DNA from: Polytrichum commune
Lineage: Eukaryota; Streptophyta; Polytrichopsida; Polytrichales; Polytrichaceae
NCBI GenBank assembly: GCA_950295325.1
Contig: OX485809.1
Coordinates: 36,277,081-36,341,080, forward strand
Direction: 5' to 3'
DNA: 64,000 bases
Shown: positions 1,733 to 45,664 of the stretch, piece by piece
Numbering within the stretch: position 1 is the first letter of the stretch
How the letters are laid out: each line of letters begins with the position of its first letter
Notes under the pieces: generated by a model
The model's input: the letters and a program-made list of their open reading frames with translations, nothing else
What the model was told of the DNA's origin: nothing
Databases searched by the model: none
Made by a program: the position numbers and the translations under genes

Positions 1733-3570
1733 GGCTGATGAGAGAGGAGTTGTGATGAATGGTATTTGTAAAGATTGGCGGGAAGGGAGTTAGGGCTATT
1801 ATTGATATCCGTCTATGTGCCACCCAAGAGCCCCGAGTATTAGCCTAAAGATATGTACTTAGGTCAACTAATTTCCCAATTTGAAGAAGGATGAATGGCT
1901 AAAATCCTCTCTTTTAGAAACTTTGTAGGCAAAATTTCCTACATGTTTTTTATCACATAGGTTGATATCCTATGTTTTTAAATTGTCCATAGGCTCTTTG
2001 TCCTACACTTTCAAAATTTTATAGGCTAAGTCACAAATTTTGTAGGCTGCATTTACACTAGCCTTAGGCTCTTGGTGGACATTGCATGGAACTAACCCTT
2101 GGAAACCATGAAATGTGGAACCTTAATTTAACTACCCATGAAAAGAAATTACCGAAATCAATCCTAGCCCAATCGAATTATGGCACCCTATAGATTCCAA
2201 AAGGGGTCCTGATTGGGAATAGGTGATCCTACTCTAAGTTAATCTCTCACTAACAACAACTTAGCCCATGATGCTTGCTTGGGGAAAGAATTGCCTATGT
2301 GAAGTTGAATATAATGCAGTCCAGAGGAATGTGGTGATCTTAAATATCAATTCTTTCACTATTGTAGTGAATGTTGAATGTAAATAATTAGTAGGCTTTT
2401 TCTTCTACAACGCATTTTTGGGATGATAACATGGACGAGTTTCAAAGCGTGGGATTCAATATAAATAAATTGTTGCTGGACTTTAGTATTACCAAAAGGC
2501 ATTTAGAATATACTCTATATAAATCACACTAGGGTAGTTGAAGATATCATTCTACATGTATTTCTACTTGTCTTTCTCCAAACGTTTTCCCAATACAATA
2601 TGCCATGGCTTTGTGACTATTATGTAAACACATCCATCCAAGAGCCAAAAACGGGAGAAAGGGAATAATTGTATACGAGTGTACTTCTCATCCATTTAGC
2701 ATAAAAACTTGACCCCTATAAGTTTGTTGTCAATTCATCTTAAAGAACCTCAAATACCTAATTTAGGATCTTAAAAACTAATTCCAATATCAAATCAACT
2801 TGAAAGAAATAACCTTTGAACTACATATTAATTTAGGGTTATTATGTTGGATGAAATGAGAGGTACGCTCATATAGGATAATTCCCTCTCTTTGTGAAAC
2901 ATAGGGAATTGAAACATAATCAAAATGTGCATATTTTCACCAAAGTCCCCTCATCCATGATGGACGAGTTTAAATGCATGCCATGAATGCGTAGCCAACA
3001 CAAGGCCTTTCTACCCACCTCTCTCTCTCTCTCCGAACTACAAATTACATTCCCTAGATTTTAAGAGTCACATCTATTGCTATAGTACTAGTAAAGCTCA
3101 TTGGATCTTTTTCAATCGTCCGTGCGCCTTGAGATACTTCAAAAGTTCCTCACCCCCCCCAAAAAGAAAGAAAGAGAGAGAGTTAAGATCATCTAGTAAA
3201 GACTCATCTTTTTGTTAGTGCCGATACTTTTAGTGAAATTGACAAGCATGTGTTTTTATATTTTGGTGGCACTAATTTCACAGCGCAAAGAAATTTAGTG
3301 TTTCTTTCACTAATTTCCCCCACTCATTATTACCCTCACTAATTCGGATAATCAATGTAGTGTGGGATTTTGGTTTCTACATGGGATTCAAGTGGATCTC
3401 ATCCCATGTATGAAGGAAACATGGAAAAATTGATGAGAAAATAAAGGCTTTTGGAGCTTCATATGTAAAGGCTCACATAATTTTAAACTTACACATTTAA
3501 ATTGTGGACAGTGGTTGTCAGTGCATCAATTGTATAAAACTCATCATTGTTCATGTACGGAATGAATACT
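1733..3570. other. AT-rich intergenic DNA, no gene seen
   Basis: No reading frame with family motifs or exon-like splice pairs was found. Short AT-rich blocks with recurring 'ttagtg' and 'cactaa' words suggest old MITE debris. Confidence 0.5.
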
Positions 3571-37314: not shown

Positions 37315-38130
37315 CTTCGAAAAAGTTGACTTTGCATTCTTGAAGGCCACCTCATCTATAACATTCATGTTGAGCGCACCTCACCTTCAAGGTCCAAAAT
37401 CCAATATATATGTTCACTTCCAGATAAAATATGAGTAATTCATTGGGATTACATTCTTGAAGTGAAATCGTCAATAAAACATATAAATAAATTTTGGAAG
37501 CTAAAAATATAATTAATCTTCATACGCATCAAAGTCTTCTTTTTTGTGACTTACAATTTAAAAGCACCTTTGAGGGGCCTTTGTCATTTTAAAGTTGAAC
37601 ATAAAATACATGTCTAATTTTGGCATATTCATCTCATAATACTATTATAATATTATTAGTATTACTTTATATTAATGCCTTCTCATATCACAAAAATTCA
37701 TACACAATCAAACTAACTAAATGTAATTGAAAGTGGTTGAGAGTAATTCGGTGTGTACTTCAGTATCTTGATACACTTGATTACGTAATTACACTTTATG
37801 CACACTTATTGAAATGAATATGCTTAAATTAGCACATTATTTTATGTTCACCTTTATAATGAATGGCCCATTCAAATGATAAGCTTCAAAGTTATAACCT
37901 TGATGCTCATGGGGATTTTTTTTTCCATATTCTCATCATCCAAACTTAATTACATATTTTATTGATGATTTTACCGTGGGAATAAAATCCCAGTCAATTG
38001 TTTATTTACTAAGTGGAAGTGACCATATGTATTGGATTTTGGGCCTTCAAGATGAGGTGCATTTAATATGGGTTTTATGGACAAGGCAATCTTCAAGAAT
38101 GCAAGGGCAACTTTTTTTTGAAGTCGGGTG
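37315..38130. repeat. Foldback repeat with arms of about 200 bp
   Basis: The segment 37328-37530 ('cattcttgaaggccacctca', 'cacctcaccttcaaggtcc', 'aaaatccaatatatatg', 'tcgtcaataaaac') matches the reverse complement of about 37900-38115 in the same order. The arms surround an AT-rich centre of about 350 bp with no coding motif. It is probably a non-autonomous DNA element; precise ends were not determined. Confidence 0.7.
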
Positions 38131-39716: not shown

Positions 39717-39808
39717 ATTGTGCCTACTACACATTGGATGAAAAAGTGTGACGACATCTGTTAAACCATCTGCTCTTGGATGAGCAATCCGTTATGCCCT
39801 GACTACCT
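39717..39808 (+). repeat. 92-bp direct repeat, left copy
   Basis: Bases 39717-39808 match 45573-45664 with equal length and about seven mismatches (both end gttatgccctgactacct). The two copies bracket the composition-distinct block with the retrotransposon. Confidence 0.9.
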
Positions 39809-39848
39809 AAACCTAAACCCTACCTAAAGCCTAAAGCCTAAACCCTTC
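39804..39848 (+). repeat. Degenerate telomere-like CCTAAA repeat
   Basis: Immediately after the left direct repeat comes a short run of units like cctaaacctaaaccctacc and ctaaagcctaaagcctaaac, resembling the plant telomere unit CCCTAAA with several errors. It is only about 40 bp, so chance or slippage cannot be excluded. Confidence 0.55.
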
Positions 39849-40167
39849 ACCCACCAATAGGGAATGTGAGCTAGGTTTAGACCGTCGTGAGATTTGTTAT
39901 GTCAGTTTAGTGGCACTGGTTTATTAAATAACTAACCTGTCTTCGCGGAACTAAAGTTGATCCAGGTTCCTTGACATTCGAATCAATCCAAGTTCGAGGC
40001 CAATAAGGCCAATGAAATAAACAACCACTTGGCATAAGAGGAAGATACGACAACCCCGCGGATACAAACCAAGCCCGAGACTAAGGAAAATGGTCCATAT
40101 GTGTAATGTAACTAGAATTATTAAGGAATATTCTAACTACAGTTGCCAGTGTGTAAGCAGAGAAAGA

Positions 40168-40490
40168 TGAGAGCTAGACAACTCTCAGTTGAAGATGATT
40201 GGATAGGAGTAAGACAACTCCAGATTGACAACATGTGCACTCGAGTTAGATAGCTCCGCATTTAGTGCATTGGAACTAGACCATTCCAATTGAGAATATG
40301 TGCACGTGAGTTAGACAACTCTCGATGAGGTGCACATGAGTTAGACCACTCCATATTTGGAAAGATGAATGTTATTCATTGGAGTTAGACAACTCTCAAT
40401 GAATAGATAAAGCTAGTTGGAATTAGACAGTTCCAACTAGAAGATGGAATGAATGAATTAGTTGGAATTAAACAGTTCCAATTGGAAGAA
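40168..40490 (+). repeat. Array of short hairpins sharing a TAGACA-type loop
   Basis: At least eight palindromes in about 320 bp have different stems but almost the same 6-8 base loop. Clear examples are ctagttggaa-ttagacag-ttccaactag near 40414-40441 (10-bp perfect stem), a stem containing cattg-gagttagacaactc-caatg at about 40377-40402, attggaa-ctagacca-ttccaat near 40269-40290, ggagt-aagaca-actcc near 40206-40221, and gagag-ctagacaa-ctctc near 40170-40187. Arms change together so that pairing is kept. Confidence 0.8.
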
Positions 40491-40998
40491 TGGAATTGAG
40501 ATAAGAGATGAAAGAAAGTTCTAGAAGAACCAAAGATAGAAGATTAATAGTAGAACTATGACATAGAGCTATGAATAGAATACTTTTATTATATGTAAAT
40601 ATAGAAAGTAAAAGTAGTGCTTCGGCATAAGAAGAAGCTCGGGGGAGGAGAGAGGATCTTTTTTGTCTCTCTCCTATGGTCGGGTGGTAGAGCTTCTATG
40701 ACCAAACCATATTTGGTCGATTGTAAGTTGATGTTACAAGAAAATAAAATAGGTGTTCATTTTATCAATTGGGTTAAGAATTGCGATTGTTATAGTCCGT
40801 GACCAACGAGTAAGAGGTTTGTAACAATATGCTATAGATAATAAGGGAGGTGGAAGATTCAACTTCGAAATGGGTGAGGAAGATGGTAAACGCTAAACAA
40901 AGTTGCCACCACAACCCGAACTCGAAGAACAAAAAGGTAGGGAAATTGCGAAAGGCCCGAAAATGCTACCCCAAGAATGTGGATAAGTAAAAAGAAGA

Positions 40999-41158
40999 AT
41001 CCCCCCTACGGGAGGCGGGGGACCTCCAGAAATGGGGAAATTGGAAAGAGACCAAAAATGCTACCCCATCCTCCCTACAGAAGGATGGGGACCGCAATAA
41101 AACGGAAGGTTGAAAAACGAACGAAATGCCACCCCCCCTCCTTGCGGGAGGAGGGGGA
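40999..41158 (+). repeat. Three GC-rich hairpin units upstream of the coding region
   Basis: Three successive units, each following an 'aaatgc.accc'-like lead, fold into G:C hairpins: ccccc..ggggg near 41001-41021, ccccatcct-ccctacag-aaggatgggg near 41064-41090, and ccccctcc-ttgc-gggaggaggggg near 41132-41158. Each is followed by 'ggggacc'. Spacing is about 65 bp. It is probably part of the element's 5' leader. Confidence 0.75.
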
Positions 41159-41327
41159 CCGCAAACTTGCTGGAAGTTGGAAAAATACTGAAAATGGATA
41201 CCTCAAGATAGTCTAGGAGTTGAGGGGAATGAGAGCTAGCATAAGATTAACCTAGACGTAGGATTAGTCGAAATGAGAATGGGAATGGTTTATCACGTTG
41301 AAATGTGGGATGCAAATATGAACTAGG

Positions 41328-44300
41328 ATGGACCCGGAGGAGGAGGCACGACTCGACCACCGAGATGACGACTGGACGCCAAAGGCTCGAGAGTGGCAGG
41401 CCACGCATAACCAAGTTGAAAGGGCAACGCGATGGACCACGAAACCGGTTAATAGAGAAATTGATAATGATAACACGATCATCGCCGAGTTCAAGATGAA
41501 GATGGCGATGGTCTTGAGGGCAAATGAGGAGATCGATAGAGGACCTACGATTTAGGCCGGCGGCGATGGTCAAAAACTTCGAGCCAAAGACTCAAAGGAG
41601 GTTTAGGGGCATAAGTAAGGCCATATTTAAATATGGTTTACAACAACTCCCTAAGGCCGAGCGAGAACGGGACGCAACGAAGGGCGAACGAATAGATGCG
41701 GTTGTAAGATGGGGGTTAAGCTTAGCGACAATTAGGATATTTGGGACAGTTAAGCATTGACCCCCCACCCCAATGCGGGGCATCCACGCGAACAAACCCC
41801 GCGAAAAGAAGAGGCCCGCAACCGGATTGCGAAGGGAGGCCAAGAAGGCTTTGAACAGGAGGTATATCGGCTCCATCTACAAATTTCATAGATGATTGTA
41901 TAAGGGTGGAGCGAGCCGGACGAATATCGAGGCGAAGGCGGCCGAACTCTATGAATTCGTCCCCCCGAGCTTCACGGGGAATGTAATTCGGGCGGACCAA
42001 ATCGCACCATTCCCATGGGACAACGAATATCTTAAGGAAGTAAGGCAAAACGAAGCGAAACTGGGCAATCCATTTTAAATGGAGGTAAAGGAGGAAGATA
42101 AGCGAGACCTCATAGTAAAAAAGATGTGGCAAATAATCCGCAAAGGGAACGGAAATAGAGGTCTCGGGTACGATCAAATAACTTAGCATATTGACGCAAT
42201 GCAATAAGATGCCGCTAATAAAATGGTTGATAAATACGTTTAGAGTTCAAACTAAGTTCGAAATAATCTATCTGGCTTATAAACTCGGTTTCGTCTCTTA
42301 TATACCGAAACTGGGGGCCCCAAATTTAAGACCAGTCACGTTATTGCCGGTCTTTTTCAAGATACAAAGTAAATACATGACATTTGTAGCTTACGAAGTG
42401 ATAAAAGAAACGGTGCGGGTGGCATACACACACACGCCCTTCATGTTCCAAATGGAAGTTAACCCCGTGGTCACTAGCTGCCGGGATACGAACCTGAAAC
42501 TAACGGCAATCTTAGAGGATAGTCAGCACAAACGAAATAAGCTATATTACTTATTTATGGACTTCAAGGGGGCATTCACGTTCCTCCCCCTGGGTCTTAT
42601 AATGAAGACCATTGATATATTGCCCATATGTTCGATCCTACGACAAATGTGGAAGGAAACGACAAGCGGAAATCATGTGCGGTTGATTGTTAACGGAGAA
42701 GTGTCCGAGCTAATTACTATAATGAGGGGGGTTGCATAAGGCAATACAATTAGCCCCTCACATTCGCAGTGGTAAAAAAATTAGTTGCGAAGTGGATAGC
42801 GAAGGAGTACAGAGGGTATTCGATCGCGAGAATCGAGATAAATGGGATGGACTATATGGACAATGAGGTTCGTATAGTAGATACGGAATAAGACATTCGG
42901 AAGATGGCCGAAATTCAGAGTGATTTCGCGGAATGGGCGAGAATGAAGTTTGGGATCCACAAGTGTGCGTATTAGGGGCGTAAGTTCGTGAGATGCAGAG
43001 GGGAAGATATAAAATTAAAAAACTTCAATCTATGTGGTGAAGCGATCCCGCAATTAGAGGGATCGGAAGCGTGTAAATACCTAGGCGAGTATAAGGCCCT
43101 GGTATCGACAAAAACTAATCAGAGTCCAATTCTGCCTTGCAGACCGAATGAAGAGAGGCGGGAGACGCATGAAGAAAAACGTGCCCTTGCCAAGTGCAAG
43201 GCGAGGGTGGCCCAACTAGACACGTCGCGAATTCAGAAGTTACACTACGCGGGGAAGCTAGACTTCCTGTCACAGGCGGCGAGACCGTTAATCGAGATCT
43301 TGTGTCCAATGAATCCGCCGCCTAATTATATCCCGGATGAAATAACCAAGATCCAATATGGGGCGGTGTAAAGGATACTAGGATGGCCGGCGAAACGAAG
43401 AGGGAAGGGACAATTCGAGATGAGTACGGACCATCTCGGGTTGCGATTACCGAACTTCAAAACAATCAGATATTCAATGCTAATGAATACGGCCTATGCC
43501 TTTATGAACAATCTGAACCCGCAAGTGAAGACGCTATTCAAACATATGGTGGAAAAAACACAAGTAGCGGCGGGGATACTGCGGGCCCCACGAGGAAAAA
43601 TCTTTATGGATTGGGACGTGGTTTACGGGAACCCAGTATTCAATGTAAACACGCAGATGAAGGGGCTCGCGTATTAGAAACCAACCAGAACGGACCCGAA
43701 AGCGAGACGTAAGATATGAACGCGAGACAAAGATAAATGCCGAACTTATATCGCGTTTATGTATTACATTTGTCAGACTCTTGGCGTGAGGATAACAACG
43801 GGAGATATATTTAAGGTAGATATCCGTAATGACAACCTTAAAGGACTCAAAATGGTAAAGGTAATCGGCAATATGAACAATGGAATGGGCCCGAATGTGC
43901 AAGCGATGCCAGACAACGAGAAACTTAAGTTAAAGGAGAATACGAAGAAGGTAGTATGATACCGCAATGGACTCGAGATCGTGAAAAAAATTGCCTCAAA
44001 AAAATTCGCGCACGACGGGGCCTACGCACTCGGAAGCCGCAAGTGAATCCGGACCTCGTGTTTGAATATGCTGGAATATAAGACGATGATTGCGGCCGCA
44101 TTTAATATGCTATCCGTAAAGTCGGTGGTGAGTACCTGGACCCGACGCAGGGAAGTGTATTGCGACAATTGCCGAGACCGAAAACGAGAAACAGTTAAAC
44201 ACATGTTTTACAGCTGTAAGTATCCGTTCTATGAGGCGATAAAGACGAAACGCCACGATAAAGTAAGAATAAAACTTTACTGTTGGATGAAGCTAAGAGC

Positions 44301-44823
44301 GGATAGAGCAAACTTGGGAGATTAGACGCGTTTCAAATCTGGATGGCAGAAAATACGTGGGGCGTGCCGAACGATAATGTGCTAATATTTACGAAAATAC
44401 TAGAAGACGCCCGAATAACGAGTCGGAGCGCGGCGAGGAGATGACATGCAAATGATTTACCGGAATTACCAGATCGAGATATGAAAAATTTCAGTCGTAA
44501 TGGAAAATGCGATAGCGAACGCGAAACGACAGAAGGCCAATAAGTATAACGAACTAGTCGATGTGGTATGCCGGAAATATCCGCAAAGTGACGTAAAATT
44601 TCGCGTGATGGTATTTGGAGGAATGAGGACGGTTTCAACGTCAATAAAACAAACCCTGCGCGAGATTCAGCCTAAGGCGCAGACATTTTGGGTGATCCAT
44701 CAGATTATCAAAGTCATCGGAAATTATAGTCACAAGTTGTGGATAGTTCGGGAGCAACTTCACAACTGGAGGCAGAACTATCCGAACGAGGAGGCGGAGA
44801 CGTGGATCCCGAAATGTAGGTAG
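41328..44823 (+). pseudogene. Reverse transcriptase / Cys-His motif / REL-like endonuclease polyprotein, decayed
   Basis: Residual frames can be followed in order. NRGLGYDQIT (about 42160) resembles the RT0 motif; YIPKLGAPNLRPVTLLPVFF is motif-2-like. FMDFKGAF holds the first catalytic Asp. MRGVA-stop-GNTISP corresponds to RGVxQGxxxSP, and YMDN to the YxDD box with its second Asp changed. KYLGEYK is thumb-like. A CDNC..ET..HMFYSC motif is followed by KRHDKV (about 44160-44260), an arrangement I associate with R2/R4 elements. Then ISVVMENA..K..KYNEL and VMVFGGM (44485-44640) resemble a restriction-like endonuclease. In-frame stops: 41758, 41893, 42076, 42184, 42205, 42737, 42889, 42973, 43369, 43675, 44482. 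At least three frameshifts are present. It cannot make a functional protein. The clade call is from memory. Confidence 0.75.
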
Positions 44824-45031
44824 GTGCGAAGGGAGTATTTTAAATATTGCGAGAACTTGGAGCAACGAGAGGAATAAGACCTAGGAACCTCCACGAACAG
44901 ACCTTGGAACGGCCGTGACTACCGAACCGAACGCACATCGATCGATACTACTATAAGGTCCTTAGTAACGCAGCTAGATGGGCAAGAAATGTCATGCCGA
45001 AAATCCAAATATATTAGAGTAAATAAAAAGT

Positions 45032-45059
45032 AGCCGTAAAAGACGTGTCTTTAACGGCT
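45032..45059 (+). repeat. Hairpin in the 3' region of the retrotransposon
   Basis: agccgtaaaagac and gtctttaacggct pair with one mismatch across a minimal loop, about 200 bp after the last coding remnant. It may be a 3'-UTR structure; no function can be shown. Confidence 0.6.
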
Positions 45060-45572
45060 TAGTGTAGCGCATATACTAAGAGTTCGGGGGACTGGGAGGA
45101 AAGATAAAAGACCATCCGAACAACCGCCCATATAACTAGGTCTAGAGCAGTTAGCGTTTTTAAATCTGCCTCCGTGTTCAGATTAATTTATAAAACTTTT
45201 ACTGGACAGGGATTGCCGACCCGTCTCGGCGGAGGTGAGGACCTTTCCGAACCGAAGGCGGCAAACCACCTGCCGAAATATGTATAAATTTAATATATAA
45301 ATAAAAAACAACCGAAATTATTTTGCCCTTAGGACAAGGCAAGTCCTAAAATCTAGCAAAGAAGTGATGCTAGAATCAACTCGAAGGATACTAACCGAAC
45401 GAGGCCTCGGCAAGCCGTTGGAGGGGGCCCGAGAGACTAGAACCCCCCGCGCACTCAAGGACGAAAGTGCAGTTCCGGGATAGAAACCGACAAAAGGGAT
45501 TACGTACTTAAAATACCCACCCTCAACACGAACATCCCCCGGACCCCGACTATGTTCACCCACCAATAGGGA

Positions 45573-45664
45573 ATTGTGCTTACTACACATTGGATGAAAA
45601 AGTGTAACGAATTCTATTAAACCATTTGTTCTTGGATGAGCAATCCGTTATGCCCTGACTACCT
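45573..45664 (+). repeat. 92-bp direct repeat, right copy
   Basis: Partner of 39717-39808, same orientation, no indels. The last base of the 19-bp boundary word overlaps its start. Confidence 0.9.

Follow-up and report, generated by a model that had tools for sequence, protein, structure and literature searches.

A decayed non-LTR retrotransposon bounded by 25S rRNA segments in Polytrichum commune, probably a dispersed copy of an rDNA-associated family

The 64,000-nucleotide stretch of Polytrichum commune DNA analysed here, hereafter the window (assembly GCA_950295325.1, contig OX485809.1, positions 36,277,081 to 36,341,080; C7:36277081-36341080 in our searches), carries a decayed non-long-terminal-repeat (non-LTR) retrotransposon of approximately 5.7 kb on the forward strand, located at about 39846-45573 and containing one broken open reading frame (ORF). 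The element opens with a segment of the 25S ribosomal RNA (rRNA) gene (TTCACCC...GTTA; 39846-39899), identical to 25S in 49 of 54 letters, and closes with a 19-nt 25S tail, TTCACCCACCAATAGGGAA (45555-45573; 19/19 identical), that starts at the same first base as the 5' segment. The ORF begins at 41328 (MDPEEEARLD), where the sequence-only reading of this DNA had placed it, and extends, with stops and frame changes throughout, to approximately 45017. Its frame translation comprises an N-terminal region, a reverse transcriptase (RT), a CCHC zinc knuckle, a restriction-like endonuclease (RLE) remnant, and a C-terminal tail. It is followed by a 3' untranslated region (45018-45554), delimited by the homologous 3' ends of other copies and ending in CCCCGACTATG. 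The extent previously proposed, 41328-44823, was too short for both the ORF and the element. A 91-bp direct repeat (39718-39808 and 45574-45664) brackets the whole. We consider the window copy to be, probably, a dead dispersed member of a plant RLE-type non-LTR family whose source copies occupied a single 25S site, GTGTTGGATTG^TTCACCC.

Genome searches covered one 408-Mb assembly of 64 contigs, of which C1-C7 measure 42-78 Mb. With the 185-aa RT piece of the window as query, 43 matches were obtained, which we assigned to 27 loci; the window is counted among these, as is a near-identical pair on contigs C4 and C50. The 42 matches outside the window showed 31-76% protein identity to the query, the best near full-length ones reaching 63-75% and the older ones 51% and less. 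Besides the window, loci L001-L012 were fetched, and L015, L025, L028 (3' end only), and L056 were read in part; L026, L027, L029, L030, L038, L039, L040, L052, and L053 came from searches with leaders, 3' ends, and motifs. Statements on copies refer to these loci, the remaining RT-match loci lying outside the sample. Judging from contig order, we took L003+L052, L004+L040+L029, L010+L027, and L053+L026 each as one element, an unproven assignment. L040 is a head-to-tail junction, in which the 3' end of one element is followed by the 25S segment from about its 31st base and then by the leader of the next. The window copy is close to L011 and 69% identical to L001 over the body.

None of the twelve copies fetched first (L001-L012) showed a whole open ORF, the longest element frames being 502 aa (L001), 450 aa (L006), 439 aa (L008), and 431 aa (L007). 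A composite protein, with its N-terminus taken from L007, its RT from L001 and L008, and its C-terminus from L001, consists of about 280 cysteine-free residues followed by RT, CCHC, RHDKV, RLE, and a tail. In the window, the RT core (42182-43100, with frame changes near 42740) displays in frame translation the DFKGAF, GNTISPL, decayed YMDNEV, and KYLGE motifs, in the place where the sequence-only reading had put an RT. The frame-aware profile check gave a divided result: RVT_1 scored 13.6 bits on the window ORF (42182-42736), below cut-off, and 54 bits on L008, where the cut-off is 29.6. The zinc knuckle CDNC...ETVKH...C (44161-44217; zf-RVT 19.3 bits, below cut-off), the RHDKV motif (44251-44265), and the stretch KISVVMEN..KYNEL..VMVFGG from 44485 were likewise found as reported, the last within an RLE remnant (44419-44667) whose domain evidence comes from other copies.

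Better copies of the same genome present the order RT, CCHC, RHDKV, PD...E...KxxKY. The C-terminus of L001 reads CDNCRERKRETVKHLFCRC, RHDKV, RRPDLIF, and then EISV and KTDKY; the RRPDLIFQY piece is kept in eight other aligned copies (L008 reads RRSDL) and is lost in the window copy. Among 20,000 shuffles of the L001 C-terminus, the RLE motif occurred in none, the CCHC motif in 26, and both together in none. The RLE/CCHC pattern was written after sight of the sequence; it matches L001 in full and misses both a Dualen-like control and L008, the latter because of its RRSDL. Upstream of the RT, no apurinic endonuclease (APE) was detected, in agreement with the earlier claim: the 431-aa N-terminal ORF of L007 returned 0 Pfam families at E <=1, in a scan that had the leader, whose longest frame in L001 is 92 aa, outside its scope. 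Family Pfam scans revealed no trace of RNase H or APE, and no N-terminal zinc finger was apparent, cysteine being absent from residues 1-294 of the L007 ORF.

The Dualen-like control is an element of the same genome, Dualen/RandI-like by domain order, with an intact single ORF of 2372 aa (L041:2686-9804; C5:33405200-33415100). Pfam identifies APE, RT, and RNase H in this ORF, which thereby serves as a positive control for the APE scan, and CCHC and RLE-like parts are also present. Its C-terminus has at least 127 scored matches in this genome (out of 7045 first-look candidates), three others being 99% identical; these sequences suggest that the Dualen-like family was recently active. Scored on the Dualen-like C-terminus, a hidden Markov model of our family gave 13.8 bits, a value equalled by 1 of 1,562 scored shuffles. 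When the CCHC-RLE profile of the family was aligned by hhalign with a Dualen-like profile of 11 copies, the score was 36.2 (E 1.4e-4, probability 53%, 136 columns), compared with at most 21.7 for 60 column-shuffled versions. The CCHC, RHxK, RPD, E, and KxxKY elements were in register and collinear, the RHDKV of L001 standing opposite RHNK in the Dualen-like element. An RLE in the family is supported by motif and profile, and the call, made from motifs and one profile match with structure aside, is well supported, not proven. The family thus shows the composition of the RLE-type class, namely an RT (RVT_1, 54 bits) followed by CCHC and a PD-(D/E)XK endonuclease assigned on motif and profile evidence, and no APE.

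The 5' end of the element is a 25S segment beginning TTCACCCACCAATAGGG. Rfam's large-subunit (LSU) rRNA model scored 74.3 bits on this segment in L001, above the gathering score of 50; in the window, LSU_rRNA_eukarya gave 26.4 bits (E 1.2e-4), below that score, and a gathering-level Rfam scan of the whole window listed nothing. The 5' ends were inspected at 18 loci, and all 12 readable leaders begin in the same 25S segment, either at or upstream of the TTC (window, L001, L005, L007, L011, L015, L038, L056) or inside the segment (L002, L010, L040, L052). At L006, L008, L009, L012, L025, and L053 the leader start was unrecognised, being truncated, diverged, or interrupted. The 25S piece at the 5' ends measures 54 or approximately 66 nt, and the junction GGATTG/TTCACCC falls within stretch 2899-3003 of the Rfam LSU model. 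At 6 of 15 loci with a readable 3' end, the limits of which were judged by eye, ...CGACTATG or one of its variants is followed by 19-60 nt of the 25S segment, again beginning at its first base; in addition to the window, these are L007 (28/28 identical), L011 (24/25), L025 (36/39), L012 (56/57), and L039 (50/60).

The 54-nt segment is unchanged (54/54) in L001, L007, and L011. Between L001 and L011 all 54 rRNA letters are identical, whereas the adjoining leader stretch is 72% identical; since letters captured once should drift, unchanged rRNA letters in diverged copies therefore point to renewal from ribosomal DNA (rDNA). Moreover, the six bases immediately preceding TTC, compared in seven flanks, agree with 25S GGATTG at 27 of 42 positions (binomial p 9e-8), and the next six positions upstream in the same flanks match at 18 of 42 (p 0.009; six of them from L011). 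The flank of L056 fits 25S over the whole of GTGTTGGATTG, at a locus partly retrieved by a pattern containing that same sequence. Microhomology with the target could contribute to this upstream fit.

The direct repeat around the window copy (84/91 identical; also detected as repeat D1) reached a local alignment score of 147, compared with a maximum of 30 in 200 shuffles. Its right copy abuts the 3' rRNA tail exactly, and its left copy is separated from the 5' rRNA segment by 37 nt. This target-site duplication, observed at one copy, lies at a non-rDNA site. The filler between the left repeat and the 5' rRNA segment (39809-39845) is made of telomere-like CCTAAA/CCTAAAG units, of unexplained origin.

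The leader contains a candidate self-cleaving fold resembling that of hepatitis delta virus (HDV), at 39962-40032 in the window, with P2 at 39962-39966/40028-40032 and a P1' CAATCC at 39984-39989 that could base-pair with the GGATTG preceding the junction in 25S. Eleven leaders were compared with 25S TTGGATTGTTC, a stretch that spans the junction and the bases directly before it. Complementarity extended over 11 nt in L001, L002, L007, and L038, a length reached by 0-1 of 300 shuffles each, and over 8 nt in the window, L010, L011, L052, and L053, where 18-32 of 300 shuffles did as well, unremarkable alone; in L005 and L015 the best complementarity, 7 nt, lay elsewhere. The order P1, P2, P3, P1', P4, P2' fits an HDV-like pseudoknot in eight leaders (window, L005, L011, L015, L038, L040, L052, L053), with 92% of 138 cells paired as compared with 10-59% after sliding by 1-3 columns; P1 was paired at 100%, its 25S strand being constant and supplied by the analyst. 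We put the chance that the leader harbours an R2-like, HDV-type self-cleaving ribozyme at about one in two.

A number of observations weigh against the proposed RLE element of 25S-specific origin. No 25S gene of the assembly was seen to contain a copy; the 25S-like loci there are fragments, and rDNA may be collapsed (441-base query, 54 matches, best 40 of 568 candidates scored); for this reason residence in rDNA is something that we infer. Seven of the 15 readable 3' ends lack an rRNA tail (L001, L002, L008, L009, L026, L027, L028), and those of L029 and L030 share 3 and 2 nt of 25S, respectively, maybe by chance. The 5' segment is imperfect (49-51/54) in L005, L015, the window, and L038, the window 5' flank agrees with 25S GGATTG at 1 of 6 positions, and a wide Rfam scan, run on seven loci, reported LSU in L001 and not in L007 or L011. 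No long duplication was found at L001, L002, L007, L008, L009, L012, L015, and L025, some of the ends searched, L015's 3' end above all, being approximate, and that at L011 is weak (score 37 vs 28). As for the leader, the pseudoknot showed no significant covariation, 139-262 of 500 shuffles doing as well on the five measures, no Rfam ribozyme matched, and the group A leaders (L001, L002, L007, L010), inspected by eye, do not fold into this P2/P3. The family RLE compared with that of R2Bm alone gave no significant match (hhalign E 0.11; score reached by 26 of 1,722 scored shuffles), a CCHC+RLE profile search of PDB returned no R2 chain, and an AlphaFold model of the decayed window piece alone failed (pLDDT, the predicted local distance difference test score, 38). 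The comparison with R2Bm has little power, because the Dualen-like profile also misses R2Bm (E 0.87) and the R2Bm RLE as query did not retrieve R2Tg from PDB at E 0.1.

Three other explanations were weighed. That the window holds an ordinary plant L1 or RTE remnant, its CCHC being the L1 zf-RVT knuckle and its RLE-like stretch a product of chance, appears highly improbable. In Pfam the CCHC region does match zf-RVT best, below cut-off, and the PDB matches of the L008 RT to R2Bm (first, 36.1 bits), another R2 (33.1 bits), and L1 ORF2p (32.9 bits) differ by few bits, R2 and L1 matches interleaving in an alignment-profile search. However, the RT tree, comprising nine family rows and nine others with R2 and Dualen as the only RLE references and no RTE row (L003, L004, L005, and L011, which are broken, L015 and L025, unaligned at that time, R2Tg, and the LTR row L037 were left out), held the family at 100/100 and five L1 rows of the same genome as a clade of their own at 100/99. 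Since these are separate supported clades, the RT does not fall firmly inside plant L1, an outcome that favours the sequence-only reading; the missing APE, the RLE motif and profile evidence, and the rRNA junctions also speak against an L1 or RTE origin. Descent from Dualen (RandI) with loss of the APE and RNase H domains, which would be compatible with rDNA targeting, we regard as improbable to a lesser degree. This genome is rich in Dualen-like elements, in part intact, the RT joins Dualen with 88/87 support, and the RLEs of the two can be aligned; yet the RT is no more similar to Dualen (23.2% identity) than to R2Bm (24.3%), the grouping unites two long branches flagged by the tree tool, and the Pfam scans disclosed neither APE nor RNase H. 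The family is on its own very long branch and the three R2 rows are weakly grouped (60/43), and we assign it to no clade. The RLE-type domain order read from the sequence is supported by the RT, the CCHC, the RLE by motif and one profile match, and the lack of an APE.

The remaining explanation accepts an RLE retrotransposon and denies its rDNA specificity: a 25S fragment would have been captured once as part of the leader and used in the RNA. It is consistent with the location of all copies read, which are outside 25S genes, with the abundance of dispersed 25S fragments in this genome, and with the existence of animal R2 families with captured 28S and of two R2 families without target specificity (PMC5035012). 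A captured piece should drift, yet the rRNA letters of L001 and L011 stayed the same next to a diverged leader; furthermore, the same piece with the same first base recurs in varying length after the 3' end in six copies, and a resemblance to 25S continues upstream into the flanks. Capture is thus unlikely, although it has the best claim of the three, and we retain a 25S-specific source as the probable explanation.

Several other 25S-related sequences were encountered and set aside. The shared TTCACCC ends, considered as short terminal repeats, turned out to be 25S rDNA; motif pairs 350-1022 bp apart from a pattern search were 25S fragments inside another dispersed repeat; and a match break at query position 238 reflected a deletion within L017, the query locus. 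Five loci where 25S fragments break near the site were checked: L056 proved to be a family copy, L054 and L057 break elsewhere, L058 gave nothing, and L055 holds a small insert in a 25S fragment that is not this element. The insert of L055 (C2:38378400-38379100, minus strand), approximately 16 nt inside the TTCACCC segment, has ends resembling inverted repeats. At L054 and L057 the fragments break at GAAGCAGAATT, with other sequence beyond, that of L054 being common to two places; a second family with rRNA pieces is possibly involved. Additionally, L013, L016, L018, L019, L020, L021, and L024 are dispersed repeats assembled from pieces of the 25S rRNA gene in scrambled order. The most similar pairs agree at about 97% over as much as 3.2 kb, and L014, L022, and L023 share a shorter part; the 25S part of these repeats ends shortly past CCCTACTGATG, not far from the right-hand limit of the 25S segment that the retrotransposon carries. 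Upstream of the element, the window contains an inverted repeat (37320-38116) with 175-nt arms, 75% complementary and 447 nt apart.

Among known systems, the animal R2 elements resemble this family in their RLE-type ORF and their association with LSU rDNA. The R2 site is in another part of 28S than the GGATTG/TTCACCC junction. R2 proteins carry one to three N-terminal zinc fingers, in contrast to the cysteine-free N-terminus found here. The R2 ribozyme includes 28S sequence in P1 and in many species cleaves upstream of the junction (PMC3774820), and the leader candidate would pair likewise. R9 of bdelloid rotifers, a member of the R2 superclade, is comparable in its insertion at a 28S site other than that of R2 (PMC5035012) and in an exceptionally long duplication, 126 bp with a stagger of the same length (PMC6895275), to be set beside the 91 bp at a non-rDNA site in the window; it differs in its animal host and in its R2-A assignment with zinc-finger motifs I, II, and III (PMC3581529). 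This likeness is by description, the letters of the R9 site lying outside the comparison. Also by description, the family can be likened to the NeSL clade (R5, LIN [28S-specific planarian families], and Utopia), which has an RLE and in part targets rRNA or small nuclear RNA genes (PMC4640811). Dualen/RandI shares an RLE and a CCHC in register with the family, and differs in carrying an APE too (PMC3636483).

The premise of the sequence-only reading that plant non-LTR elements are overwhelmingly L1 or RTE fits flowering plants, which have almost only L1 and some RTE (PMC3747384); green algae contain RandI elements (PMC3747384). The present genome gave 34 exon-level WRKY matches, as against 0 of 14 control genomes, which marks a land plant or a near relative of land plants with a small WRKY set. 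R2 was stated not to have been found outside the animal kingdom as of 2016 (PMC5035012), PMC13188248 deals with R2 in animals, and the hosts listed for Utopia among the RLE clades are Amoebozoa, SAR, and Opisthokonta, without Archaeplastida (PMC4640811). No plant rDNA-specific RLE element appeared in the titles and abstracts surveyed, Repbase, preprints, and subscription papers being outside that scope. The suggestion that the family was acquired horizontally is unsupported. No relatives were found in prokaryote genome contigs (10 pattern matches, 0 confirmed) or in viral contigs. The spread of the copies (31-76% identity) points to long residence in the genome, without proving it. The family is real, old, and of RLE type.

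These findings lead us to propose that the family most likely once lived as a parasite in the 25S rDNA of a land plant and that its dispersed copies arose off target. In the proposed cycle, the element would be co-transcribed with 25S rRNA, and an HDV-type leader ribozyme, using 25S as its P1 strand, would cleave the transcript within a few bases of the junction, on its upstream side, and leave an RNA beginning with 25S sequence; at the 3' end some RNAs would continue into 25S. The single protein would then nick the target by means of its RLE and prime reverse transcription there, and a second cut far downstream would produce a long target-site duplication. Off-target jumps would take rRNA pieces along and leave dispersed copies. 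On balance, we lean slightly towards regarding the family as the first LSU-rDNA-specific lineage outside animals, with its own 25S site, no zinc fingers, an R2-like ribozyme, a long duplication, and repeated escape with rRNA pieces. R elements, familiar as parasites of animal rRNA genes, are under development for targeted gene insertion. If our proposal is true, the LSU rRNA gene niche would also have been colonised outside animals, and the lineage, apparently devoid of zinc fingers, would offer a new targeting protein; and as the rRNA letters at both ends would record the RNA template, co-transcription and 5' processing would be directly testable.

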